Part shown: one piece after another, positions 8,141 to 28,068 of the stretch
Layout: each line of letters begins with the position of its first letter
How positions within the stretch are numbered: position 1 is the stretch's first letter
Virus record (IMG/VR): IMGVR_UViG_3300046011_008708
Span: 1-29,292 of that record
Origin: a virus
Direction: 5' to 3' (one strand)
DNA: 29,292 bases
Notes under the pieces: generated by a model
What the model saw: the letters and a program-made list of their open reading frames with translations, nothing else
Database searches by the model: none
Told to the model about the DNA's origin: nothing
Translations under genes and position numbers: made by a program

Positions 8141-8760
8141 TAGGTACCTCCCTCTCTCCATTTCTCGTATTGATCGAGTTTTGCGATCGTTTGAGCATTT
8201 ATCTTATCGTTGTCGAGACGATTGTGCATGATCATGAAGTCGGTGGCCGCCTGCGCGTCAGCGAATTCGTCCGAAAGTCGATCGAACAGATCTCCTTGAC
8301 CATCCCAGTGTTTGCCTTTGCCACCACTGGCAATGAGCTTTCCAAGGATTTGGAGAACCTCACCGTACTCCTCGACGGTTTTCCCAAGGCCAGGCACGAC
8401 CTCGGAGCCTAGCTGGAATGGCTGTTTCGCGACTCGCTCACGAAGCACCTTGACCTCTTCAACGAGCAGCGGATATCCAGCTTCGTAACGCTGAACGAGA
8501 TTGAGCGCGGTCTGAACGACAGTGATGGAGTCGGGATCACCATAGATGTTGTTCCCGCTCCAACTTAGTCCAGAAAGCGTGTGTCCGAAGAACTGAGCCG
8601 GAACATGCTTGATCAAACCGAGCACGCGACTCAGGGTAAGCGCCTTGTCCCTCGTAATTGCGTCGGCATTGAGGTCACCGTATTCCTCAATGAGTCCTTC
8701 GAGAACCCATTTGACGTGATCGGTGTCGATCGGGGATGGATCACTGCGGCTCATAGGCAT
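8140..8760 (-). CDS. MazG-like nucleotide pyrophosphohydrolase domain protein
   Basis: 206 residues from ATG 8760 (a second ATG at 8754 is possible). The N-terminal 110 residues are helical without a recognised motif. The C-terminal part from about residue 125 carries the all-alpha NTP-pyrophosphatase pattern: KTVEEYGEVLQ (E-x-x-E on the first helix), a Gly/Lys loop (SGGKGKHWDGQGD), then DRLSDEFADAQAATDFM (D-E-x-x-D/A on the second). MazG-like enzymes hydrolyse NTPs to NMPs; phage versions are thought to lower (p)ppGpp or clear modified nucleotides. Substrate here unknown. It is followed by an overlapping small gene and preceded by 8741-9016. Confidence 0.72.
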   Translation of the reverse strand: MPMSRSDPSPIDTDHVKWVLEGLIEEYGDLNADAITRDKALTLSRVLGLIKHVPAQFFGHTLSGLSWSGNNIYGDPDSITVVQTALNLVQRYEAGYPLLVEEVKVLRERVAKQPFQLGSEVVPGLGKTVEEYGEVLQILGKLIASGGKGKHWDGQGDLFDRLSDEFADAQAATDFMIMHNRLDNDKINAQTIAKLDQYEKWREGGT

Positions 8761-9016
8761 TCCAATCTAGAAGCTTGTGGCGGAAAACGGCGAAGTACAA
8801 CGCTCCCGGAAAGAGGTCCAGCATCTTGAGAAGGCCGAAGCGCTGTCGGACGCGGTGGATCATGATGGCAATGAGACCCTTCAGGACCAGATATTCTGTT
8901 GTTGGATCTTTTTCGATCGCGACAGCGAACCGATCAAGACCGTAAAAGACGGTGTCGATCTGTCGGTCGAGAATGACCGTTGCTTTACGGTCTAGTTCTT
9001 CTTCAGTCGTTGTCAA
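8741..9016 (-). CDS. hypothetical protein, 91 residues, TTG start
   Basis: No suitable ATG; the TTG at 9016 overlaps the stop of the preceding gene as TTGA, the same coupling seen with ATGA elsewhere. Helical N-terminus (EEELDRKATVILDRQIDTVF), a hydrophobic middle (EYLVLKGLIAIMIHRVRQRF) and aromatic C-terminus (FPGALYFAVFRHKLLDW). Possibly membrane-associated, but no clean transmembrane segment. Not a continuation of the NADAR fragment before it. Confidence 0.6.
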   Translation of the reverse strand: MTTTEEELDRKATVILDRQIDTVFYGLDRFAVAIEKDPTTEYLVLKGLIAIMIHRVRQRFGLLKMLDLFPGALYFAVFRHKLLDWNAYEPQ

Positions 9017-9546: not shown

Positions 9547-10458
9547 TTATTCGTCGTCTTCGGCAATACGACGGAAGAAGTCCATGTCAGCGTCATCGGC
9601 GGTGTCAGTCAGTTCAGCTTCTTCCTTTGCAGGCGCTTGACGTGACGGACGTTCGCGTTCTTGGCGCGGTGCCGATTCCTTCGGACGCTCTGCAGTGACG
9701 TCTGTATCCATGTCCGGAAGGACCTTGGACAGACGACGCTTCAGCTCGTCGTAGCTCTTGAAGGTAGACGGATCCAAGATCTCTTGGAGCGAGTACTCGC
9801 TCTTCCAGATCTCCTCGAGACGAGCGTCGTCATCGAGCAGAGGACCAGCAGTGTCGAAGTCCGACTTGTCGTAGTTGCGGTAGCCTTCGAACTTGCGGAT
9901 ACGGAGACGGAAGTTCGCTCCTTCCCACAGATCGAACGCGACCATCGGCTTCTCTTCGAAGGTCGGATCAGGGTTCATCGCGTCGTTGATCTTGTCGAAG
10001 ATCTTCTTGCCGTACTTGTAGCGGAAGACCTTGCCTTCGTTATCCGGATTTCCCGGATCCTTCACGACATAGATGTTCGAGACGAAGTGAAGACGACGCT
10101 TCTGCTTGCGGGCAGTTTCCTTGTCCTCTTCACGACCGGAGTTCCACAGCTTGCCGTTGTACTCACCGACAGGGTCGTCCTGACCAATGGAGGTCAGAGA
10201 CTTCTCGATGTACCACTGGCCAGTAGGCCCTTGGAAACCGTGGTCCCAGAATCGGATGAATGGGACGTCTTCGTTCGGAGGTGCTGGGAGGAATCGGATG
10301 ACCGCTGAGCCGTTGCCGTTCTTGTCGACCGTAGGGCTCCAGTAGGTGTCATCGCTTGAACGTTCTCCACCGCCTGAGACCTTAGTAAGTTGTTCGGTCA
10401 GTTTGGCGAGGTTAGAATCGCGATCGCGCTTCAGGGAAGCGAAAGAACTATTAGTCAT
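9547..10458 (-). CDS. 32: single-stranded DNA-binding protein, T4 gp32 family
   Basis: 303 residues (T4 gp32 is 301) from ATG 10458 after GGAGAACACA. gp32 coats single-stranded DNA during replication, recombination and repair and contacts polymerase and gp59. Family landmarks: a basic N-terminal LAST-like region (residues 5-15, FASLKRDRDSN), the OB-fold core with AVIRFLPAPP and FIRFWDHGF, then KDPGNPDNEGKVFRYKYGKK and DKINDAMNP, which matches T4 closely; an acidic C-terminus (DTADDADMDFFRRIAEDDE). T4 gp32 holds zinc with one His and three Cys; here the His (WDHGF) remains but no Cys is present anywhere, the equivalent stretch being YIEKSLTSIGQDDPVGEY. A hairpin leader lies upstream and a terminator downstream. 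Confidence 0.95.
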   Translation of the reverse strand: MTNSSFASLKRDRDSNLAKLTEQLTKVSGGGERSSDDTYWSPTVDKNGNGSAVIRFLPAPPNEDVPFIRFWDHGFQGPTGQWYIEKSLTSIGQDDPVGEYNGKLWNSGREEDKETARKQKRRLHFVSNIYVVKDPGNPDNEGKVFRYKYGKKIFDKINDAMNPDPTFEEKPMVAFDLWEGANFRLRIRKFEGYRNYDKSDFDTAGPLLDDDARLEEIWKSEYSLQEILDPSTFKSYDELKRRLSKVLPDMDTDVTAERPKESAPRQERERPSRQAPAKEEAELTDTADDADMDFFRRIAEDDE

Positions 10459-10487
10459 TGTGTTCTCCATGTATTCGTATGACAAAG

Positions 10488-10512
10488 GATCGTCAAAGTG
10501 TGCTTGACGATC
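10488..10512 (-). promoter_or_regulatory. 32: hairpin in the gene 32 leader, possible autoregulatory element
   Basis: Perfect 9-bp stem GATCGTCAA / TTGACGATC with a 7-base loop, starting at the last stop-codon base of gene 59 and ending 29 bases before the gp32 ATG. The intervening leader is A/T-rich. T4 gp32 represses its own mRNA by binding an unstructured leader next to a pseudoknot; an analogous role here is inference. Confidence 0.55.
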
Positions 10513-11102
10513 TATATATCAGTCTGGGAGAACCTTTCTTTGAAGACCTTTTTTAATTTTTGTCTGTCGTAGGCAACAAACGGAGCGTACTTGACAATAC
10601 GTTTCCGGATCACCGGCCACACCACCGATTCGTCGATGGTCTTGTTCCAATAGGGCACCAGACCAAGAAGATCGCATAGAACCACCATCGTCTCATGACT
10701 GATCTGCTTCTGACGGTACAGCTTCAGGATCGGTGGATGCTGATCGACCACTGTAAAGTTAGACTTCATGTCGTCGTCGAGCTTGTCGAGGTCTTCTTTG
10801 AAGATGCGCGTTAGCGAGTCACGACGACGCACCCAATCGGTATACCGCTGGGCGCCTTCTGAAGTTTTGATGAAGTCACCGATCCAAGCATCTGGTGTCT
10901 CGATAAGATTCGCGACAAGAAAATGGATCGGACTCTCCTTTTTGGAGAGCGTGTGGAAGTAGTATTTGTCTTTACGGCGATCGAAGGCATCCAAAGATGC
11001 CCTCGTCTTCCACCCGTATTTCGCGCCGTCAAACCCCTCATCGGTGAAGTGACGCTTCACCGCGATATAGAGCTTGTAACACTCAAACGGCGTTTGGGCC
11101 AT
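10512..11102 (-). CDS. 59: helicase loader, T4 gp59 family
   Basis: 196 residues (T4 gp59 is 217) from ATG 11102, overlapping the gene 33 stop as TAATG. The opening TPFECYKLYIAVKRHFTDEG is characteristic of gp59, followed by the basic region with DKYYFHTLSKKESPIHFLVAN and the all-alpha second half (VVDQHPPILKLYRQKQISHE, MVVLCDLLGLVPYWN). gp59 binds fork DNA and gp32 and loads the gp41 helicase. Position directly between gene 33 and gene 32 is the T4 order, which supports the assignment. Confidence 0.92.
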   Translation of the reverse strand: MAQTPFECYKLYIAVKRHFTDEGFDGAKYGWKTRASLDAFDRRKDKYYFHTLSKKESPIHFLVANLIETPDAWIGDFIKTSEGAQRYTDWVRRRDSLTRIFKEDLDKLDDDMKSNFTVVDQHPPILKLYRQKQISHETMVVLCDLLGLVPYWNKTIDESVVWPVIRKRIVKYAPFVAYDRQKLKKVFKERFSQTDI

Positions 11103-11353
11103 TAGACCGGCAGCTTGGTAGTCTTCGGCAGGAAATTGAGCTTCTCAGCAGATTCCTGCATGTTGAACTTGATCTTCGGATTCGACCTTACGATCGAAGC
11201 GACGGTCTCGATATCCGCACCAGACATTTCAGAATAGTGAATGGCGGCGTCGATGTAGTCGCCACCGTTGGTTTGCGCGATTCGATGCAACTCAACGATG
11301 ACCGCCTTAGAATCAAGCACGGTTGCCGGGACGACGGGGACTTGTTCAGTCAT
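11102..11353 (-). CDS. 33: late-transcription coactivator, T4 gp33-like
   Basis: 83 residues (T4 gp33 is 112) from ATG 11353. The protein is short, helical and mixed in charge: KAVIVELHRIAQTNGGDYID, AAIHYSEMSGADIETVASIV, then NMQESAEKLNFLPKTTKLPV. In T4, gp33 bridges RNA polymerase to the sliding clamp for late transcription. Sequence similarity alone would be weak evidence; the position immediately upstream of gene 59 and then 32, as in T4, carries the call. Confidence 0.8.
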   Translation of the reverse strand: MTEQVPVVPATVLDSKAVIVELHRIAQTNGGDYIDAAIHYSEMSGADIETVASIVRSNPKIKFNMQESAEKLNFLPKTTKLPV

Positions 11354-11364
11354 AGACTCTCACT

Positions 11365-11877
11365 CTAACGGTAGAAAAGATGATTTCCGATCTTGATCTT
11401 CCGGGGTGACCGGTAACCCGAGTCGGCGTGAAAATAGAGCGATCCAGCCGTTGGGTCTGAGGACTTATCATGCGTCCAATAGACATTATTGGCGACGCGT
11501 TTTGCCTGTGCCCAGGGACCACTCTCGTTGATCCCGTACCCCTTACCGTACCAGACGAACTGCCCAGGCGCGGAAATAACGGAGCAGACTGTATTTTGGA
11601 ATCGGCCACTCTTTACCCGATTTATCGTGACGTAGGCTACGGCCTCCATGCCACGGTGTCCTTCGCCTCGCGCCTCATGATAGACGTTTCTGGCCAGACA
11701 TTCGATCTCAGTTCTATCTCTCTGCGAGACGACGATCGCGGGTTTTACACTTTGGCTGGTGAATTGCTCAACCAGCTCTCTATTCGGCTCTTGAGCCACG
11801 GAAGAAATATCCGTTACCGATCCTAGAAGGTATAGTATCACAGCTAGGGCGGCGGTAGTGAAGAATTTATTGCGCAA
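11365..11877 (-). CDS. secreted SleB/CwlJ-type cell-wall hydrolase
   Basis: 170 residues from a TTG at 11877 with AGGAG eight bases upstream; no ATG fits. Residues 1-28 form a signal peptide (basic MRNK, hydrophobic core AALAVILYLLG). The Hydrolase_2 domain begins near residue 57: IECLARNVYHEARGEGHRGM with catalytic-type Glu68, then AVAYVTINRVKSGRFQNTVC, the QFVWY element, and SLYFHADSGYRSP near the end. The family cleaves peptidoglycan, best known in spore germination, and also occurs in alphaproteobacteria and phages. It could act at lysis or in remodelling the host wall. It lies just behind the tmRNA terminator and before gene 33, an unusual place for a lysis-type gene. Confidence 0.88.
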   Translation of the reverse strand: MRNKFFTTAALAVILYLLGSVTDISSVAQEPNRELVEQFTSQSVKPAIVVSQRDRTEIECLARNVYHEARGEGHRGMEAVAYVTINRVKSGRFQNTVCSVISAPGQFVWYGKGYGINESGPWAQAKRVANNVYWTHDKSSDPTAGSLYFHADSGYRSPRKIKIGNHLFYR

Positions 11878-12010: not shown

Positions 12011-12049
12011 AAAAAACGGAGGACCCTTTGCTTTATAGGGCGGTCCTCC
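12011..12049 (-). terminator. rho-independent terminator after the tmRNA
   Basis: Minus strand: GGAGGACC (12049-12042), a 16-base loop, GGTCCTCC (12025-12018), then G and TTTTTT (12016-12011). An 8-bp perfect stem with a T-run, 22 bases after the tag stop codon. Confidence 0.9.
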
Positions 12050-12362
12050 AGTTCCCCAGACACCTAAATCTTAGGCAGCCTTCGCCATAGCGAAAGCCGG
12101 TTCGACTTGGTTATCGTTCGCGATGTTGTTGACATCTACAGTTTTGCCCGGTACGTCGGAGCTCACGCCATCCTCTACTTTACTTCACGACGTGAATCGA
12201 TTCTGTTTCGCCCCCATCAGAAGCCCATGGAACGATTAGCACAAGGCCGACCGCTGTATTCGGACTCTGCGGCATTATCCGCTCGTCCATGGGTTTGTGG
12301 TGGAGGCGGGCGGCACTGCCCCGCCGTCTTCACGCTTTCCGCTCCGCTTCAACGGATGGATA
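12040..12362 (-). ncRNA. ssrA: circularly permuted two-piece tmRNA
   Basis: On the minus strand the acceptor piece comes first: T-arm-like GGCGG-GGCAGTG-CCGCC (12325-12309), then CGCCTCC (12308-12302), A and an encoded CCA (12300-12298). After an 82-base spacer the coding piece starts GGGGGCG (12215-12209) AAACAGAATCGA. The two 7-base strands pair fully, with G3.U70 at the third pair, the alanine identity element. A tag frame with stop codon TAA follows (12121-12071). The spacer contains an 8-base inverted repeat (CCCATGGA at 12293-12286 / TCCATGGG at 12231-12224) that would bring the two ends together for processing. Permuted tmRNA is the alphaproteobacterial form. The T-loop lacks the usual TTC-type sequence. 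It has its own promoter (P12) and terminator. Exact ends are approximate. Confidence 0.93.
12071..12121 (-). other. ssrA: tmRNA tag-peptide reading frame
   Basis: From a GCG resume codon at 12121, 16 codons encode ANDNQVEPAFAMAKAA, then TAA (12073-12071). Start Ala-Asn-Asp-Asn and the terminal Ala-Ala are the conserved ends of alphaproteobacterial tags. The tag is longer than usual and the third residue from the end is Lys, where Leu or Val is typical. The resume codon is inferred from the conserved ANDN start; the frame is open upstream. Confidence 0.85.
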
Positions 12363-12390: not shown

Positions 12391-12418
12391 ATCCTAACAC
12401 GCCGGTTAGGATTGTAAA
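12391..12418 (-). promoter_or_regulatory. early-type promoter P12 for the tmRNA
   Basis: TTTACA (12413-12418), 16-base spacer ATCCTAACCGGCGTGT, TAGGAT (12391-12396). The A-rich motif AAATAGTCGTT, normally just upstream of the -35, also occurs directly downstream of the -10 (12381-12391), as if a second promoter had been partly duplicated. Confidence 0.85.
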
Positions 12419-14589: not shown

Positions 14590-15057
14590 TTACGCGGCGA
14601 TAATTTGCGTGAAGCCTTCTTCCACCGTCGGAACTTGCAGAGTTGCGTGCATCCGACGAATCACGTCTTCAGGAATGATCTTGTCGCGGTCGCTGTTCAG
14701 TCGACGCGCAAGAGCGGTCTCCAGAGGGACATCGAAGAAGACACACTCATGTTCGTAGGTCTTCGGAAGGCGACGGATCTTCTTTTGCCGGCTCTTCCTC
14801 GTCAGATTCGTCTGATCGAAGATGACATCGAGACCACGTTCGGCCGCGATGTCCATGATGTTGAACATCAGCCGCTCAGCCGGTTCGATGACTTGGCCAA
14901 AGGCCTCATCATACGTCTTGCCGATCTCTTTGGCCAAGAAGTGAACGCACTTGTCAATCGAAAGGACGACGGTGTCTGGATTCCAATTGAGGTAGTTCTG
15001 GACCCAGGTGCTTTTACCGGCGCACGGGATGCCGACGAGGACGGTGGCTTTAGGCAT
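14590..15057 (-). CDS. P-loop polynucleotide kinase (T4 Pnk kinase-domain-like)
   Basis: 155 residues. ATG at 15057 chosen over 15081 because it overlaps the stop of the preceding gene by eight bases. Walker A GIPCAGKST (residues 9-17, Lys15), then DKCVHFL, a DVIFDQTNLTRKSRQKKIRR segment (the DxTN motif seen in polynucleotide kinases) and the lid Arg segment ETALARRLNSDR. It corresponds to the N-terminal kinase half of T4 Pnkp, which phosphorylates 5'-OH ends; the phosphatase half is absent. With the RNA ligase at 16910-18115 it could repair broken tRNAs; the missing 3'-phosphatase would need to be elsewhere. Confidence 0.85.
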   Translation of the reverse strand: MPKATVLVGIPCAGKSTWVQNYLNWNPDTVVLSIDKCVHFLAKEIGKTYDEAFGQVIEPAERLMFNIMDIAAERGLDVIFDQTNLTRKSRQKKIRRLPKTYEHECVFFDVPLETALARRLNSDRDKIIPEDVIRRMHATLQVPTVEEGFTQIIAA

Positions 15058-15442
15058 TTTGCTTGTCGTATTCCTTGGCAAGAACGATGGCTGCTGAAAG
15101 AGCCATTGACGGATTGACCAATCCCTTGATCGGGTATGACGTAGTTCCGGGAAAGGCGGTTGGAACGACGATGACCTTGTCGTACGAGGTCACGAAGCTA
15201 TGGCGAAGCTCGACCCACCAACGACGACCGTCATCCATGCTCATATGAGCGATAACCCACTTCGGACACAAAATTTCGAAGAGACGCAGGACATGAGTGA
15301 GGTCGTCGGTGAAGCGCGGACCGTTCGGGACAAGATCAACGGTAGGCCAGAGAAACTTCTCAATGACTCTATCGACCGCACGGCTGGGCTTTTCCTGTCG
15401 TTGAATAAGCTCAACCAAGTCGGTGGCCGCGTAAACCTTCAT
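15050..15442 (-). CDS. hypothetical protein, 130 residues
   Basis: ATG at 15442 after AAGGAGACACT. Helical start (KVYAATDLVELIQRQEKPSR), a central strand-rich part (CPKWVIAHMSMDDGRRWWVE) and a C-terminal helix (NPSMALSAAIVLAKEYDKQ). The overall alpha-beta-alpha layout with a late A-rich helix recalls phage ABA-sandwich domains, but this is weak. It overlaps the kinase gene by eight bases. Confidence 0.68.
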   Translation of the reverse strand: MKVYAATDLVELIQRQEKPSRAVDRVIEKFLWPTVDLVPNGPRFTDDLTHVLRLFEILCPKWVIAHMSMDDGRRWWVELRHSFVTSYDKVIVVPTAFPGTTSYPIKGLVNPSMALSAAIVLAKEYDKQNA

Positions 15443-16730: not shown

Positions 16731-16910
16731 TCATTTACCGGTGTAACCGGGTTCAAGTTCGTGTGGATCGAGCAGCATGTCCCAGCCGAGACCGGCTGCT
16801 TCGCTTTCCCACTCGCATGGACCGATTTGAACGAGATCAGGATGTTCCCGCTTGTACTCGTCGAACTCGGCTTGGACGTAGGGGTTGTTCTCGAATTGGG
16901 TTGCGGTCAT
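16731..16910 (-). CDS. small acidic protein, 59 residues
   Basis: ATG at 16910 overlapping the RNA ligase stop as TGATG. The product starts MTATQFENNPYVQAEFDEY and contains KREHPDLVQIGPCEWESEAA, ending LEPGYTGK. Codon use is like its neighbours. Coupled to the ligase; function unknown. Confidence 0.7.
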   Translation of the reverse strand: MTATQFENNPYVQAEFDEYKREHPDLVQIGPCEWESEAAGLGWDMLLDPHELEPGYTGK

Positions 16911-18115
16911 CAGAATTTCACCGTCCAGTTGAGAGTTTCTTTGAACTCTTCGTATTTGACGTTCGACGAGAGGTGGCTTACGAGCACCTTCATGAACTCG
17001 TCCCTGGCGCTGCTGACCGGACCACCGTCATCCGAATGATGGTCCATCATCTTGAAGACAATCGATCGCAGCGGAGCCTTGATCGACGGTGCGATCTCCA
17101 TGGCGACGTGCTTCTTGTCATAGCCTTTGAAGCGGATCGAGTCAGTGAGACCATTGAGGAACAAGCAGGTGTCATAGATCTTCTGATGGAGACGCATCTC
17201 GAACTGCGAGAGCCGCGTCTTGTCCTCGTCCGACAAGTGCGGCTTCAGGTCGTCGATGCTCTTATCGAGGATCATCTCCACAATGTGTCGCTCGAACCGC
17301 ATATTGTCCTTGGTCTTGTGCAGTCGGCAGTACCAGTCGCATTTGACCTTGACCATGTGACCATCTGCAAACCGGATCACGATGCCTTCACTATCACCCG
17401 ACCACGGTGCAACCCACTCGGCGATCTCGCGAGCGTGCTTCGGACCATCGAATGTCTTGACGAACGGGATGACGCCGTCGTCGAGAACCACATCTTCGAT
17501 CTTGTAGTATTCGCCGGTCTTCATGTCGCGAAGAGCCGTAAGAACGAGCTGAGTCTCCGGATAGTCGATGACGATGCGTTGATCACGCGAGCAGAATTCG
17601 AAGATTGGGGTGATCCCAATCTTGATCATTCGTCGGGCAAATTCTTCATATTCCGGCCTATCGGCAATATGGGCCTGCGCCAGTTTGGCGACATCGGTGT
17701 CGCCCATCTTGGTTCCCCAGATCAGTTGATCGCGGACTGCGAAGGGTGAGATCATCGAGCCGTCAAGCTTCTCCAGGATGATGTGGTCCAGATTCATCGG
17801 CAGCAGGTGGTGCTGCGTCTCCTGCCGTTCGTCCATGTTGAAGAACTTGTGGTAGGGACGACGGATGACTTTGCCGGTCTCGGAGTCGAAGATGATGCCG
17901 CGACACTCACGACGCAGAGCGTAGTTACGAGTGCGCTGAGCGCGCATCTTGGCAGAACCACCGGCCACCTTGACGGGTGGGAAGGTGTCCTCGAAGTTTA
18001 CCGCGTAGTCGATGATGGTATAGCCATCACGATAAGCGACAACGAACTCATCACGACCGGCGATGGCCTCGAGGACCTCGGCGATGTGGTTGATGACGGG
18101 GAATTCGTAGTTCAT
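16910..18115 (-). CDS. rnlA: RNA ligase, T4 Rnl1 type
   Basis: 401 residues (T4 Rnl1 is 374) from ATG 18115. It seals 5'-phosphate and 3'-OH RNA ends through a ligase-AMP intermediate. Nucleotidyltransferase motifs in order: RRECRGIIFD (about 68-77) and KFFNMDE before the active site, motif I LEKLDGS with Lys116, motif IIIa FEFCSRDQRIVI (about 172-183), motif IV EGIVIRF (243-249), motif V VKVKCDWY (255-262). The C-terminal 140 residues are helical, as in Rnl1. With the kinase nearby this fits the T4 system that repairs tRNAs cut by host anticodon nucleases. Second gene from promoter P15, overlapping the gene before it by four bases. Confidence 0.94.
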   Translation of the reverse strand: MNYEFPVINHIAEVLEAIAGRDEFVVAYRDGYTIIDYAVNFEDTFPPVKVAGGSAKMRAQRTRNYALRRECRGIIFDSETGKVIRRPYHKFFNMDERQETQHHLLPMNLDHIILEKLDGSMISPFAVRDQLIWGTKMGDTDVAKLAQAHIADRPEYEEFARRMIKIGITPIFEFCSRDQRIVIDYPETQLVLTALRDMKTGEYYKIEDVVLDDGVIPFVKTFDGPKHAREIAEWVAPWSGDSEGIVIRFADGHMVKVKCDWYCRLHKTKDNMRFERHIVEMILDKSIDDLKPHLSDEDKTRLSQFEMRLHQKIYDTCLFLNGLTDSIRFKGYDKKHVAMEIAPSIKAPLRSIVFKMMDHHSDDGGPVSSARDEFMKVLVSHLSSNVKYEEFKETLNWTVKF

Positions 18116-20237: not shown

Positions 20238-20639
20238 TCAGTCTCCGTGCGTTCTAGGCCATCCGCTGACATGACCAAGTTCGTGACACAGGACGCCAGT
20301 GAAATTGGTGTCAGTAAGATCCGCGTCTAGACATGGATGAGGGACATAAATGATTCCGTCGGCAACGCATCCCTGGATCACATATCCGCACACAGGCGGC
20401 CCACAGATTTCTTGAATTCTTTTAACAGACCTAAATGCTACAGTTGCGTCCTCGTATCGCTGAAAGCGCGCCGGTGGTCGTCCATCCCCATTGGCATAGG
20501 AACTATTAGCTGACGAGCCGGCAGGTGGTTCCTCTAATGGCACGCAAACCGGTTTGGGATCTTGCTTAGTTGGTTGTTTTGTGGGAGTTGGACCGCACGC
20601 GACTAGTGTCAGAGCGACGGCTACCAGCAAGAGTCTCAT
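20238..20639 (-). CDS. lipoprotein with HExxH metallopeptidase motif
   Basis: 133 residues from ATG 20639, overlapping the nuclease stop as TAATG. Residues 1-15 form a lipoprotein signal: hydrophobic core then lipobox VACG with Cys15 to be lipidated. A Pro/Lys-rich linker (PTPTKQPTKQDPKPVC) follows, then a Cys-rich domain (ICGPPVCGYVIQGC) and, at the C-terminus, GVLCHELGHVSGWPRTHGD with a HExxH motif; a His lies two residues further on than the third metzincin ligand would be. The product is likely anchored in the cell envelope. Targets are unknown; envelope modification or superinfection control are only possibilities. Confidence 0.8.
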   Translation of the reverse strand: MRLLLVAVALTLVACGPTPTKQPTKQDPKPVCVPLEEPPAGSSANSSYANGDGRPPARFQRYEDATVAFRSVKRIQEICGPPVCGYVIQGCVADGIIYVPHPCLDADLTDTNFTGVLCHELGHVSGWPRTHGD

Positions 20640-21334
20640 TAACCACCATGTTTTGCAAAAATGTCCACAACATCCTGACGCATCTCGTCAGTGAATTTCT
20701 CTTCGAAGACTCGACCTTCTTCGGCTACCGAACCGATAGCGACCACGATGTTCTTGATCGCGCCCGGCTTATTGAGCCTCTCTTCGATCATGATACCGTA
20801 AGCGCCACCTTGAACGAAATAGTTGTCAATCCATTCGCGCTTCTTGAGACGTGTGGAGGTCTTGAAGTCCAAGACTGTCGGTTCATTCCTCCATCCAATG
20901 AAAGCGTCTGTCCGACCAGCGGCTTTCAGAACGTGGGAGTAAAGGGGTGCTTCTGTCGCATAGACAGCGGTGACGTTCTTATCGATCTCTTTTTGGATCG
21001 ATTGAAAGCACATCACATTGAAGGGGACATGGCCCTGCGCGAAGTTCTCGAAGTTCAGAAGGTAGTTTTCGGCAAGAGTGTGAACCGCGGTGCCACGTTG
21101 CGCAGCCACCCGACCGATTCTATCGGCCTCTTCTCGCCCAACTCGAGCACGCCACTCGTCGAGACTATCTTCGCCATAGTAGCGACCTAGAACGGTCGTG
21201 ACAGATGGGTACTTGTGACCATCTGGTGTCTCGTAGAACCGACCATTATCCGTAGTGTCGCAAGGTAGGTCCTGGAATTTGATGGGCAGTTGGCGGAAGA
21301 TCTTTCCGCGTGGAATTGCGATGCCGCTGATCAA
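20639..21334 (-). CDS. PD-(D/E)XK nuclease (Cas4/MGME1-like)
   Basis: 231 residues from a TTG at 21334 (GGAA five bases upstream; no ATG). GHKYPSVTTVLGRYYGEDS, then RGTAVHTLAENYL with His85, then GRTDAFIGWRNEPTVLDFKT with Asp143, Asp156 and Lys158 (the D...DxK signature), and YFVQGGAYG. This is the Cas4/RecB-type single-strand exonuclease family that includes mitochondrial MGME1. Likely role in DNA end processing or recombination. RecB-like nucleases are common in large phages; precise polarity not known. Confidence 0.85.
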   Translation of the reverse strand: MISGIAIPRGKIFRQLPIKFQDLPCDTTDNGRFYETPDGHKYPSVTTVLGRYYGEDSLDEWRARVGREEADRIGRVAAQRGTAVHTLAENYLLNFENFAQGHVPFNVMCFQSIQKEIDKNVTAVYATEAPLYSHVLKAAGRTDAFIGWRNEPTVLDFKTSTRLKKREWIDNYFVQGGAYGIMIEERLNKPGAIKNIVVAIGSVAEEGRVFEEKFTDEMRQDVVDIFAKHGG

Positions 21335-27389: not shown

Positions 27390-27397
27390 TATAAATA
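27390..27397 (+). promoter_or_regulatory. T4-type late promoter TATAAATA, plus strand
   Basis: An exact TATAAATA, 57 bases before the ATG of the plus-strand endonuclease at 27454. T4 late promoters need only this -10 and the gp55/gp33/sliding-clamp machinery; a gp33 candidate is at 11102-11353. Confidence 0.7.
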
Positions 27398-27453
27398 TTG
27401 TGTCGATCGCGATGCTGGTAACATCCATCGACTCTAGACTGAGGAGGTGCATT

Positions 27454-28068
27454 ATGTCCAGCAACATTACTTATACCGTCTACCGGACAACCAATCTGAT
27501 CAATGAGAAAATTTACGTCGGCGTTCATGCGACTCCGAACGTGTATGACTCTTATCTAGGATCAGGAAAAGCTCTCAATAGAGCCATCACTAAATACGGT
27601 CGTGACTTCTTCTCGAAAGAGATCATTGCCAGATTCGACGAATCATCAACGGCGTATGATCTTGAGAGACAAATCGTGACTGAATCGTTTGTTAAAAACC
27701 GATCGACCTATAATGCGAAGCTTGGCGGTCATGGTGGTTGGGACCACGTGTCTTCATCACCAGAAATCACGAAAAGAATTGGAATGACTCTCAGGGGACG
27801 AACTCTATCACCCGAACATGTTCAAAAAATTAAGACCGCTCTAACTGCACGAACTAGATCTCCAGAAGAACGACTTGCAATTTCTATTGGAAAGAGAAAT
27901 GGAAAGAAATCTATTCCAAAAAATCCAGAGATTCGAGCAGCCAAATTATCAGCTGCTCTTAAAGGCCGATCTAAACCAAAAACAAATTACTGTATTCACT
28001 GTAAAGGATGGTTTGATGGTGCAAATTATCAGCGGTGGCATGGCGAGAAGTGCAAAGTCACTTCTTGA
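27454..28068 (+). CDS. GIY-YIG homing endonuclease with NUMOD3 repeats
   Basis: 204 residues on the plus strand, the only clear plus-strand gene here, starting at ATG 27454 after GAGGAGGTGCATT; an earlier in-frame TTG is rejected. TYTVYRTTNLINEKIYVGVH is the GIY-YIG segment, with YLGSGKALNRAITKYGRDFF and a catalytic-type Glu in the following FSKEI. The region 115-180 holds two or three NUMOD3-like elements (MTLRGRTLSPEHVQKIKTAL, KLSAALKGR), and the C-terminus (YCIHCKGWFDGANYQRWHGE, KC) is a small zinc finger. These are free-standing mobile endonucleases like T4 Seg proteins. It is more A/T-rich than its neighbours, a sign of recent arrival, and its end overlaps the glutaredoxin gene tail-to-tail by 11 bases. 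Confidence 0.92.
   Translation: MSSNITYTVYRTTNLINEKIYVGVHATPNVYDSYLGSGKALNRAITKYGRDFFSKEIIARFDESSTAYDLERQIVTESFVKNRSTYNAKLGGHGGWDHVSSSPEITKRIGMTLRGRTLSPEHVQKIKTALTARTRSPEERLAISIGKRNGKKSIPKNPEIRAAKLSAALKGRSKPKTNYCIHCKGWFDGANYQRWHGEKCKVTS

Follow-up and report, generated by a model that had tools for sequence, protein, structure and literature searches.

A two-piece transfer-messenger RNA (tmRNA) encoded by a phage was already reported in 2022, from the Methylophilales phage Melnitz (MZ577097), together with 53 predicted two-piece forms among 133 unique phage tmRNA structures and a permuted tmRNA in 17 of the 47 contigs of the Melnitz cluster (PMC9004378). The tmRNA database holds 79 unique bacteriophage sequences (PMC11915505), and the tmRNAs of mycobacteriophage Bxz1 and its relatives are listed in PMC4131195. 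Here we analyzed IMG/VR record IMGVR_UViG_3300046011_008708, a viral contig of 29,292 bases that represents a T4-like phage fragment and is referred to below, at its full length, as the window. A first-pass annotation made from the sequence alone had placed in it a circularly permuted, alphaproteobacterial-type phage tmRNA with its own promoter and terminator. We computed the presence, architecture, paired helices and synteny of this gene, its co-inheritance with gp32, and its tag sequence. A permuted tmRNA gene is present in full on the minus strand of the window (12360-12011); it is a new instance of a known phage gene type, with an unusual tag that is new. We put the probability that it is a functional alphaproteobacterial-type permuted tmRNA gene of a T4-like phage lineage at roughly 85%.

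Results

The Rfam model tmRNA_permuted (RF04321, gathering cut-off 47 bits) matched window positions 12358-12071 with 79.4 bits (E 6.5e-14) over its full length, model positions 1-213 of 213. The alpha_tmRNA model (RF01849, cut-off 50 bits), which the first-pass annotation had named as a check, matched with 58.4 bits (E 7e-14) in the tRNA-like core alone, model positions 79-179 of 355. These E values refer to the whole window. The presence of a tmRNA is not due to chance, and the annotated type is borne out. ARAGORN did not find the gene in the window, and it likewise missed many of the sampled relatives that bear the motif described below.

The gene runs from a candidate promoter through an acceptor piece with encoded CCA, an 82-nt spacer and a coding piece with the tag frame to a terminator (Table 1). 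This is the two-piece layout, with the acceptor piece ahead of the coding piece, a 7-bp acceptor stem across the spacer, and CCA. Pairing is complete in the acceptor stem (7/7), T-stem (5/5) and P2a (7/7), and both the CCA and the CGCCTCC/GGGGGCG pairing noted at first pass are present as read. The third acceptor pair is G12213-U12304, that is G3.U70, the alanine identity pair recognized by alanyl-tRNA synthetase; it does not vary among 81 phage and 87 host copies (these and later counts for phage and host copies are among the matches listed). At several positions the window differs on both sides from the commonest phage pair and is still paired (for example T_3, C-G vs G-C, and P2a_1, T-A vs C-G). 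The P2 helix is supported by the covariance model and by the pair comparison, not by RNAfold, whose lowest-energy fold of the joined pieces lacks it. Within 12169-12145, candidate PK1-like pairings GCGT/ACGT and TCCG/CGGG were read by eye.

Since a nucleotide search of annotated phages with the tmRNA and the flank of a twin contig (L110) gave no homologue, relatives were sought via a conserved motif and via gp32. The tmRNA region of the twin is 100% identical to that of the window, and the two are possibly not independent samples. A search for close relatives with gp59 returned the twin alone, and one with RNase H recovered the twin again, along with one further 100% match and distant relatives. 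A 19-base tmRNA motif was found in at least 120 stretches of IMG/VR, and synteny was counted over 119 contigs among the matches listed, excluding the twin. At least one of the genes gp33, gp59 and gp32 is seen in 66 of the 119, and in 65 of these every one that is seen lies downstream of the tmRNA on the same strand; where an exonuclease is present, it lies upstream on that strand in 62 of 63 contigs. The isolates Melnitz and HTVC008M have the same arrangement upstream of gp33-gp59-gp32, and the window tmRNA is placed and oriented as in this type of locus. The window lacks one feature of the Melnitz/HTVC008M type, an exonuclease directly upstream of the tmRNA: the distance is 8.8 kb, vs ca. 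0.5-2 kb in most relatives.

Contigs were also selected by gp32, which avoids selecting on the tmRNA itself. Of the 50 records searched, 2 came via RNase H rather than gp32, and neither is among the 18 with a permuted tmRNA above the cut-off. In 17 of these 18, tmRNA and gp32 share a strand and the tmRNA lies 1.8-3.8 kb upstream; in the remaining record, of 157 kb, the two are ca. 105 kb apart. A separate observation concerns L005, a 65-kb viral contig that also bears the 19-base motif and encodes a one-piece tmRNA (RF00023) at 8523-8881 on the minus strand, with several tRNAs.

Across 21 loci with both genes, the identities of gp32 and tmRNA correlate (Mantel, Spearman 0.48), with none of 2000 permutations as high. 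In a tree of 169 tmRNAs, weakly supported and built on 153 columns with listed motif matches as hosts, phage copies fall apart from host copies with 4-5 label changes, vs ca. 56 when labels are shuffled; the window copy is a long branch in it. These patterns support long residence of the tmRNA in phages, with no named donor. A recent capture from a host is not favoured, given the synteny of the gene in T4-like phages and its co-inheritance with gp32.

In relatives, the resume codon lies 64-113 bases from the first G of the coding piece, most commonly 81, 82 or 85 (83-86 in hosts), and most contexts have U at -5 and A at -4. The window codon GUC, at distance 82, has both of these bases. Four codons on, at distance 94, the GCG of ANDN has C at -4, a base found there in 2 of 68 phage contexts and in none of 90 from hosts. 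Because distance and context fit, GUC is most likely the resume codon, and the predicted tag is therefore VNNIANDNQVEPAFAMAKAA, with 20 residues vs the usual 10-17. The frame first annotated, ANDNQVEPAFAMAKAA, is indeed open to the TAA, but its start probably lies four codons earlier, giving 20 residues rather than 16. Several phage tmRNAs (L002, L008, L012, L040 and L088) have a doubled tag motif, ANDNIANDNYSEYRLAA, in the form ANDNIAVDNYSEYRLAA in L088, and we speculate that VN-NIANDN in the window may be a decayed motif of this kind. A hairpin of 8 bp, GCTTTCGC-TATG-GCGAAGGC, also occupies the last tag codons (12083-12102, minus strand) and possibly limits the choice of the FAMAKA residues.

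The 8-base inverted repeat CCCATGGA/TCCATGGG that the first-pass annotation saw in the spacer is present; when the 82-nt sequence was shuffled 5000 times, 39 of the shuffles equalled it. The role assigned to it, that of holding the two ends together, falls in the mature RNA to P1 and P2. Spacer ends pair in 71 of 78 phage and 88 of 97 host spacers, and this pairing continues the acceptor stem in the precursor. The hairpin is a general feature of permuted tmRNA precursors and, since the spacer is removed on maturation, probably serves their folding and processing.

The annotated terminator has its stem-loop and T6; a scan with a loop limit of 8 missed it solely because its loop has 16 nt. The annotated promoter is plausible as a sigma-70-type candidate. 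An 8-bp inverted repeat, ATCCTAAC-N6-GTTAGGAT (12391-12412), spans exactly the spacer and -10 of this candidate; it may act as an operator, or as a hairpin that terminates the upstream gene. The T4-late-like GATAAATA (12393-12386) overlaps the candidate promoter and was not accepted as a late promoter, TATAAATA-like sites in the window being at chance level. The sole perfect T4 late promoter, TATAAATA, stands, within 27390-28068, just ahead of a plus-strand open reading frame, which has a weak SegE-like GIY-YIG endonuclease match slightly below the Pfam cut-off.

The T4-like genes of the window are gp32, gp59, gp33, RNase H, a RuvC-like resolvase, T4 RNA ligase 1 and a polynucleotide-kinase-type kinase. 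Among the phages listed, the closest gp32 proteins are those of the Sinorhizobium phages phiM12, phiM7 and phiM19 (59.7% identity over 244 residues). This, with the alphaproteobacterial type of the tmRNA, suggests an alphaproteobacterial host, with the caveat from Melnitz that tmRNA type and host need not match (PMC9004378).

Table 1. Features of the tmRNA locus and its neighbors, in window coordinates.
Feature	Position	Strand	Basis or remark
Candidate sigma-70-type promoter, TTTACA-N16-TAGGAT	12391..12418	-	9/12 matches; shuffles mean 0.4; weak
Acceptor piece	12298..12360 (5' bound putative)	-	Rfam match and pair table
P2 outer strand, CCATCC	12359-12354	-	acceptor piece
P2a strand, GCGTGAA	12335-12329	-	acceptor piece
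T-arm, loop GGCAGTG	12325-12309	-	acceptor piece
Acceptor 3' strand, CGCCTCC	12308-12302	-	acceptor piece; discriminator A 12301; encoded CCA 12300-12298
Intervening spacer, 82 nt	12216..12297	-	ends closed by CCCATGGA/TCCATGGG; fold -28.2 kcal/mol
Coding piece, 5' part	12134..12215	-	Rfam match, pair table, resume-context comparison
Acceptor 5' strand, GGGGGCG	12215-12209	-	coding piece
D-like AAACAGAATCGA	within 12134..12215	-	coding piece
P2a strand, TTCACGT	12196-12190	-	coding piece
P2 outer strand, GGATGG	12173-12168	-	coding piece
PK1-like region and resume context GTAGAT	within 12134..12215	-	PK1-like region read by hand
Tag reading frame VNNIANDNQVEPAFAMAKAA, 20 residues (probable)	12074..12133	-	resume codon GUC 12133-12131; distance and context
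Tag stop codon TAA	12071..12073	-	sequence
Intrinsic terminator	12011..12049	-	GGAGGACC, 16-nt loop, GGTCCTCC, then T6; 8-bp stem 12049-12042/12025-12018; T6 at 12016-12011
Cell wall hydrolase (endolysin-like)	11365..11877	-	PF07486; PHROG endolysin; first gene downstream of tmRNA
gp33-like late transcription coactivator	11102..11353	-	phrog_254, 8e-6; conserved-neighborhood member
gp59-like helicase loader	10512..11102	-	phrog_269, 5e-51; conserved-neighborhood member
gp32-like single-stranded DNA binding protein	9547..10485	-	PF08804, 2.5e-39; conserved-neighborhood member
PDDEXK-type exonuclease	20639..21334	-	phrog_298, 1.6e-57; upstream of tmRNA

Discussion

For expression, processing, charging, tagging and benefit of the tmRNA, we infer the following course. 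A single transcript would run from upstream of the acceptor piece through to the terminator, and host tRNA-processing enzymes would excise the spacer. Two pieces, acceptor and coding, would remain, joined through the acceptor stem (P1) and the P2 helix. The molecule would be charged via G3.U70 by the alanyl-tRNA synthetase of the host, and host SmpB would deliver it to ribosomes stalled on stop-less mRNAs, where translation would resume at GUC, append VNNIANDNQVEPAFAMAKAA and stop at TAA. Neither the window nor nine related phage records, several of which are fragments, yielded an SmpB; therefore, host SmpB, alanyl-tRNA synthetase and processing enzymes are most likely used. The simplest role, and the most likely one, would be to free ribosomes from broken mRNA in infected cells, the probable benefit being that rescue stays supplied while host mRNA and DNA are degraded. 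The authors of the Melnitz study proposed that the tmRNA keeps up the hijacked machinery or marks host proteins to be recycled (PMC9004378). The window also encodes a polynucleotide-kinase-type kinase (14590-15081) and a T4 RNA ligase 1 homologue (16910-18115). In T4, this pair repairs cleaved tRNA; the tmRNA pieces would be a conceivable substrate.

Several observations weigh against a functional gene that serves the phage. GUC is an unusual resume codon (2 of 68 phage contexts; 3 of 68 for GUC or GUG), and no other tag compared ends in KAA, neither among 52 from phages, which include two probably misread frames (ANDNEALLTL and YNDQRRDRKSSF), nor among 46 from hosts. In AAACAGGATCGA, A replaces G in the window copy and in none of the 168 others compared, where the search pattern permitted A, and on the tree the window copy sits on a long branch (0.77). 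Taken together, these four features make some loss of function possible. In addition, phiM12 and the cyanophage S-H9-1, from sibling lineages, gave no tmRNA match; the phage tmRNA is therefore dispensable.

The alternative that survives best, although unlikely, is that rescue is kept and proteolysis retuned by the longer tag and its antepenultimate Lys, with poor or different degradation of tagged proteins. The length and the KAA end are in its favor, as is the modest rise in Km that mutation of the antepenultimate Leu causes with E. coli ClpXP (PMC7652416), but the altered tag is a single sequence with no independent relative sharing the change, and 3 of 46 host tags end in QAA, so a polar residue is tolerated there. 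That such a tag, read from GUC, evolved to combine ribosome rescue with escape or diversion of tagged proteins from the host Clp proteases seems slightly less likely again. Because the effect of the antepenultimate position is modest and the terminal Ala-Ala matter most in E. coli ClpXP (PMC7652416), degradation of tagged proteins is probably kept, perhaps slowed.

We regard it as improbable that the tmRNA is in decay, or that it inhibits by titrating SmpB, after the manner of the tag-less tmRNA of DS6A. The window copy is divergent, has one near-invariant base changed, and at 79 bits scores below most relatives (73-147 for full-length ones); yet it retains all core helices, partly via two-sided changes, and its tag frame, stop and terminator are intact. 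Recent capture of a host ssrA, which the first-pass annotation had proposed to look for among host copies, or mis-assembly of a host fragment into the phage contig, is very improbable: the window tmRNA is as near to host as to phage copies (best identities 61.7% and 62.0%, among the matches listed) and tmRNA genes are frequent integration sites (PMC11915505), but no sampled host copy is closer than 62%, phage and host copies separate on the tree, phage genes flank the tmRNA on both sides at a site and on a strand found in many related phages, and the twin contig, perhaps not independent, has the identical region.

With a functional phage tmRNA as the preferred reading, this ribosome-rescue RNA appears to have long been carried by many T4-like phages at a conserved position, in linkage with the gp33-gp59-gp32 replication and late-transcription genes. 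It is often overlooked by ARAGORN and is unannotated even in the reference isolate HTVC008M. Three points we did not find stated in the literature searched: how widely the tmRNA is linked to gp33-gp59-gp32, the syntenic homology of the HTVC008M copy, and the window tag. The fixed genomic site makes the role of the phage tmRNA testable in a cultured phage, and the unusual tag is directly assayable.

Compared with known systems, the window tmRNA shares with host two-piece tmRNA (RF01849) the acceptor and T-arm architecture, G3.U70 and an ANDN motif in the tag. The host tags sampled have 10-16 residues and end in LAA, VAA, AAA, IAA, QAA or MAA, whereas the window tag ends in KAA, and host spacers are shorter (median 36-37, vs ca. 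100 in phages and 82 in the window). Mycobacteriophage tmRNAs of the Bxz1 type are also phage-encoded, but are one-piece forms from an unrelated phage lineage. The Pelagibacter phage HTVC008M (NC_020484.1) has a permuted tmRNA at 145161-145370 on the plus strand (90.6 bits), which is alike in form and lies between the exonuclease and gp33, and which differs in its tag, ANFNEYALAA (ARAGORN). Melnitz likewise has a permuted tmRNA of alphaproteobacterial type, with exonuclease, tmRNA, gp33, gp59 and gp32 on one strand; its tag is ANDNYVPVDYALAA and a glutamine riboswitch lies just downstream, whereas the window has no riboswitch match and a predicted tag of 20 residues ending in KAA.
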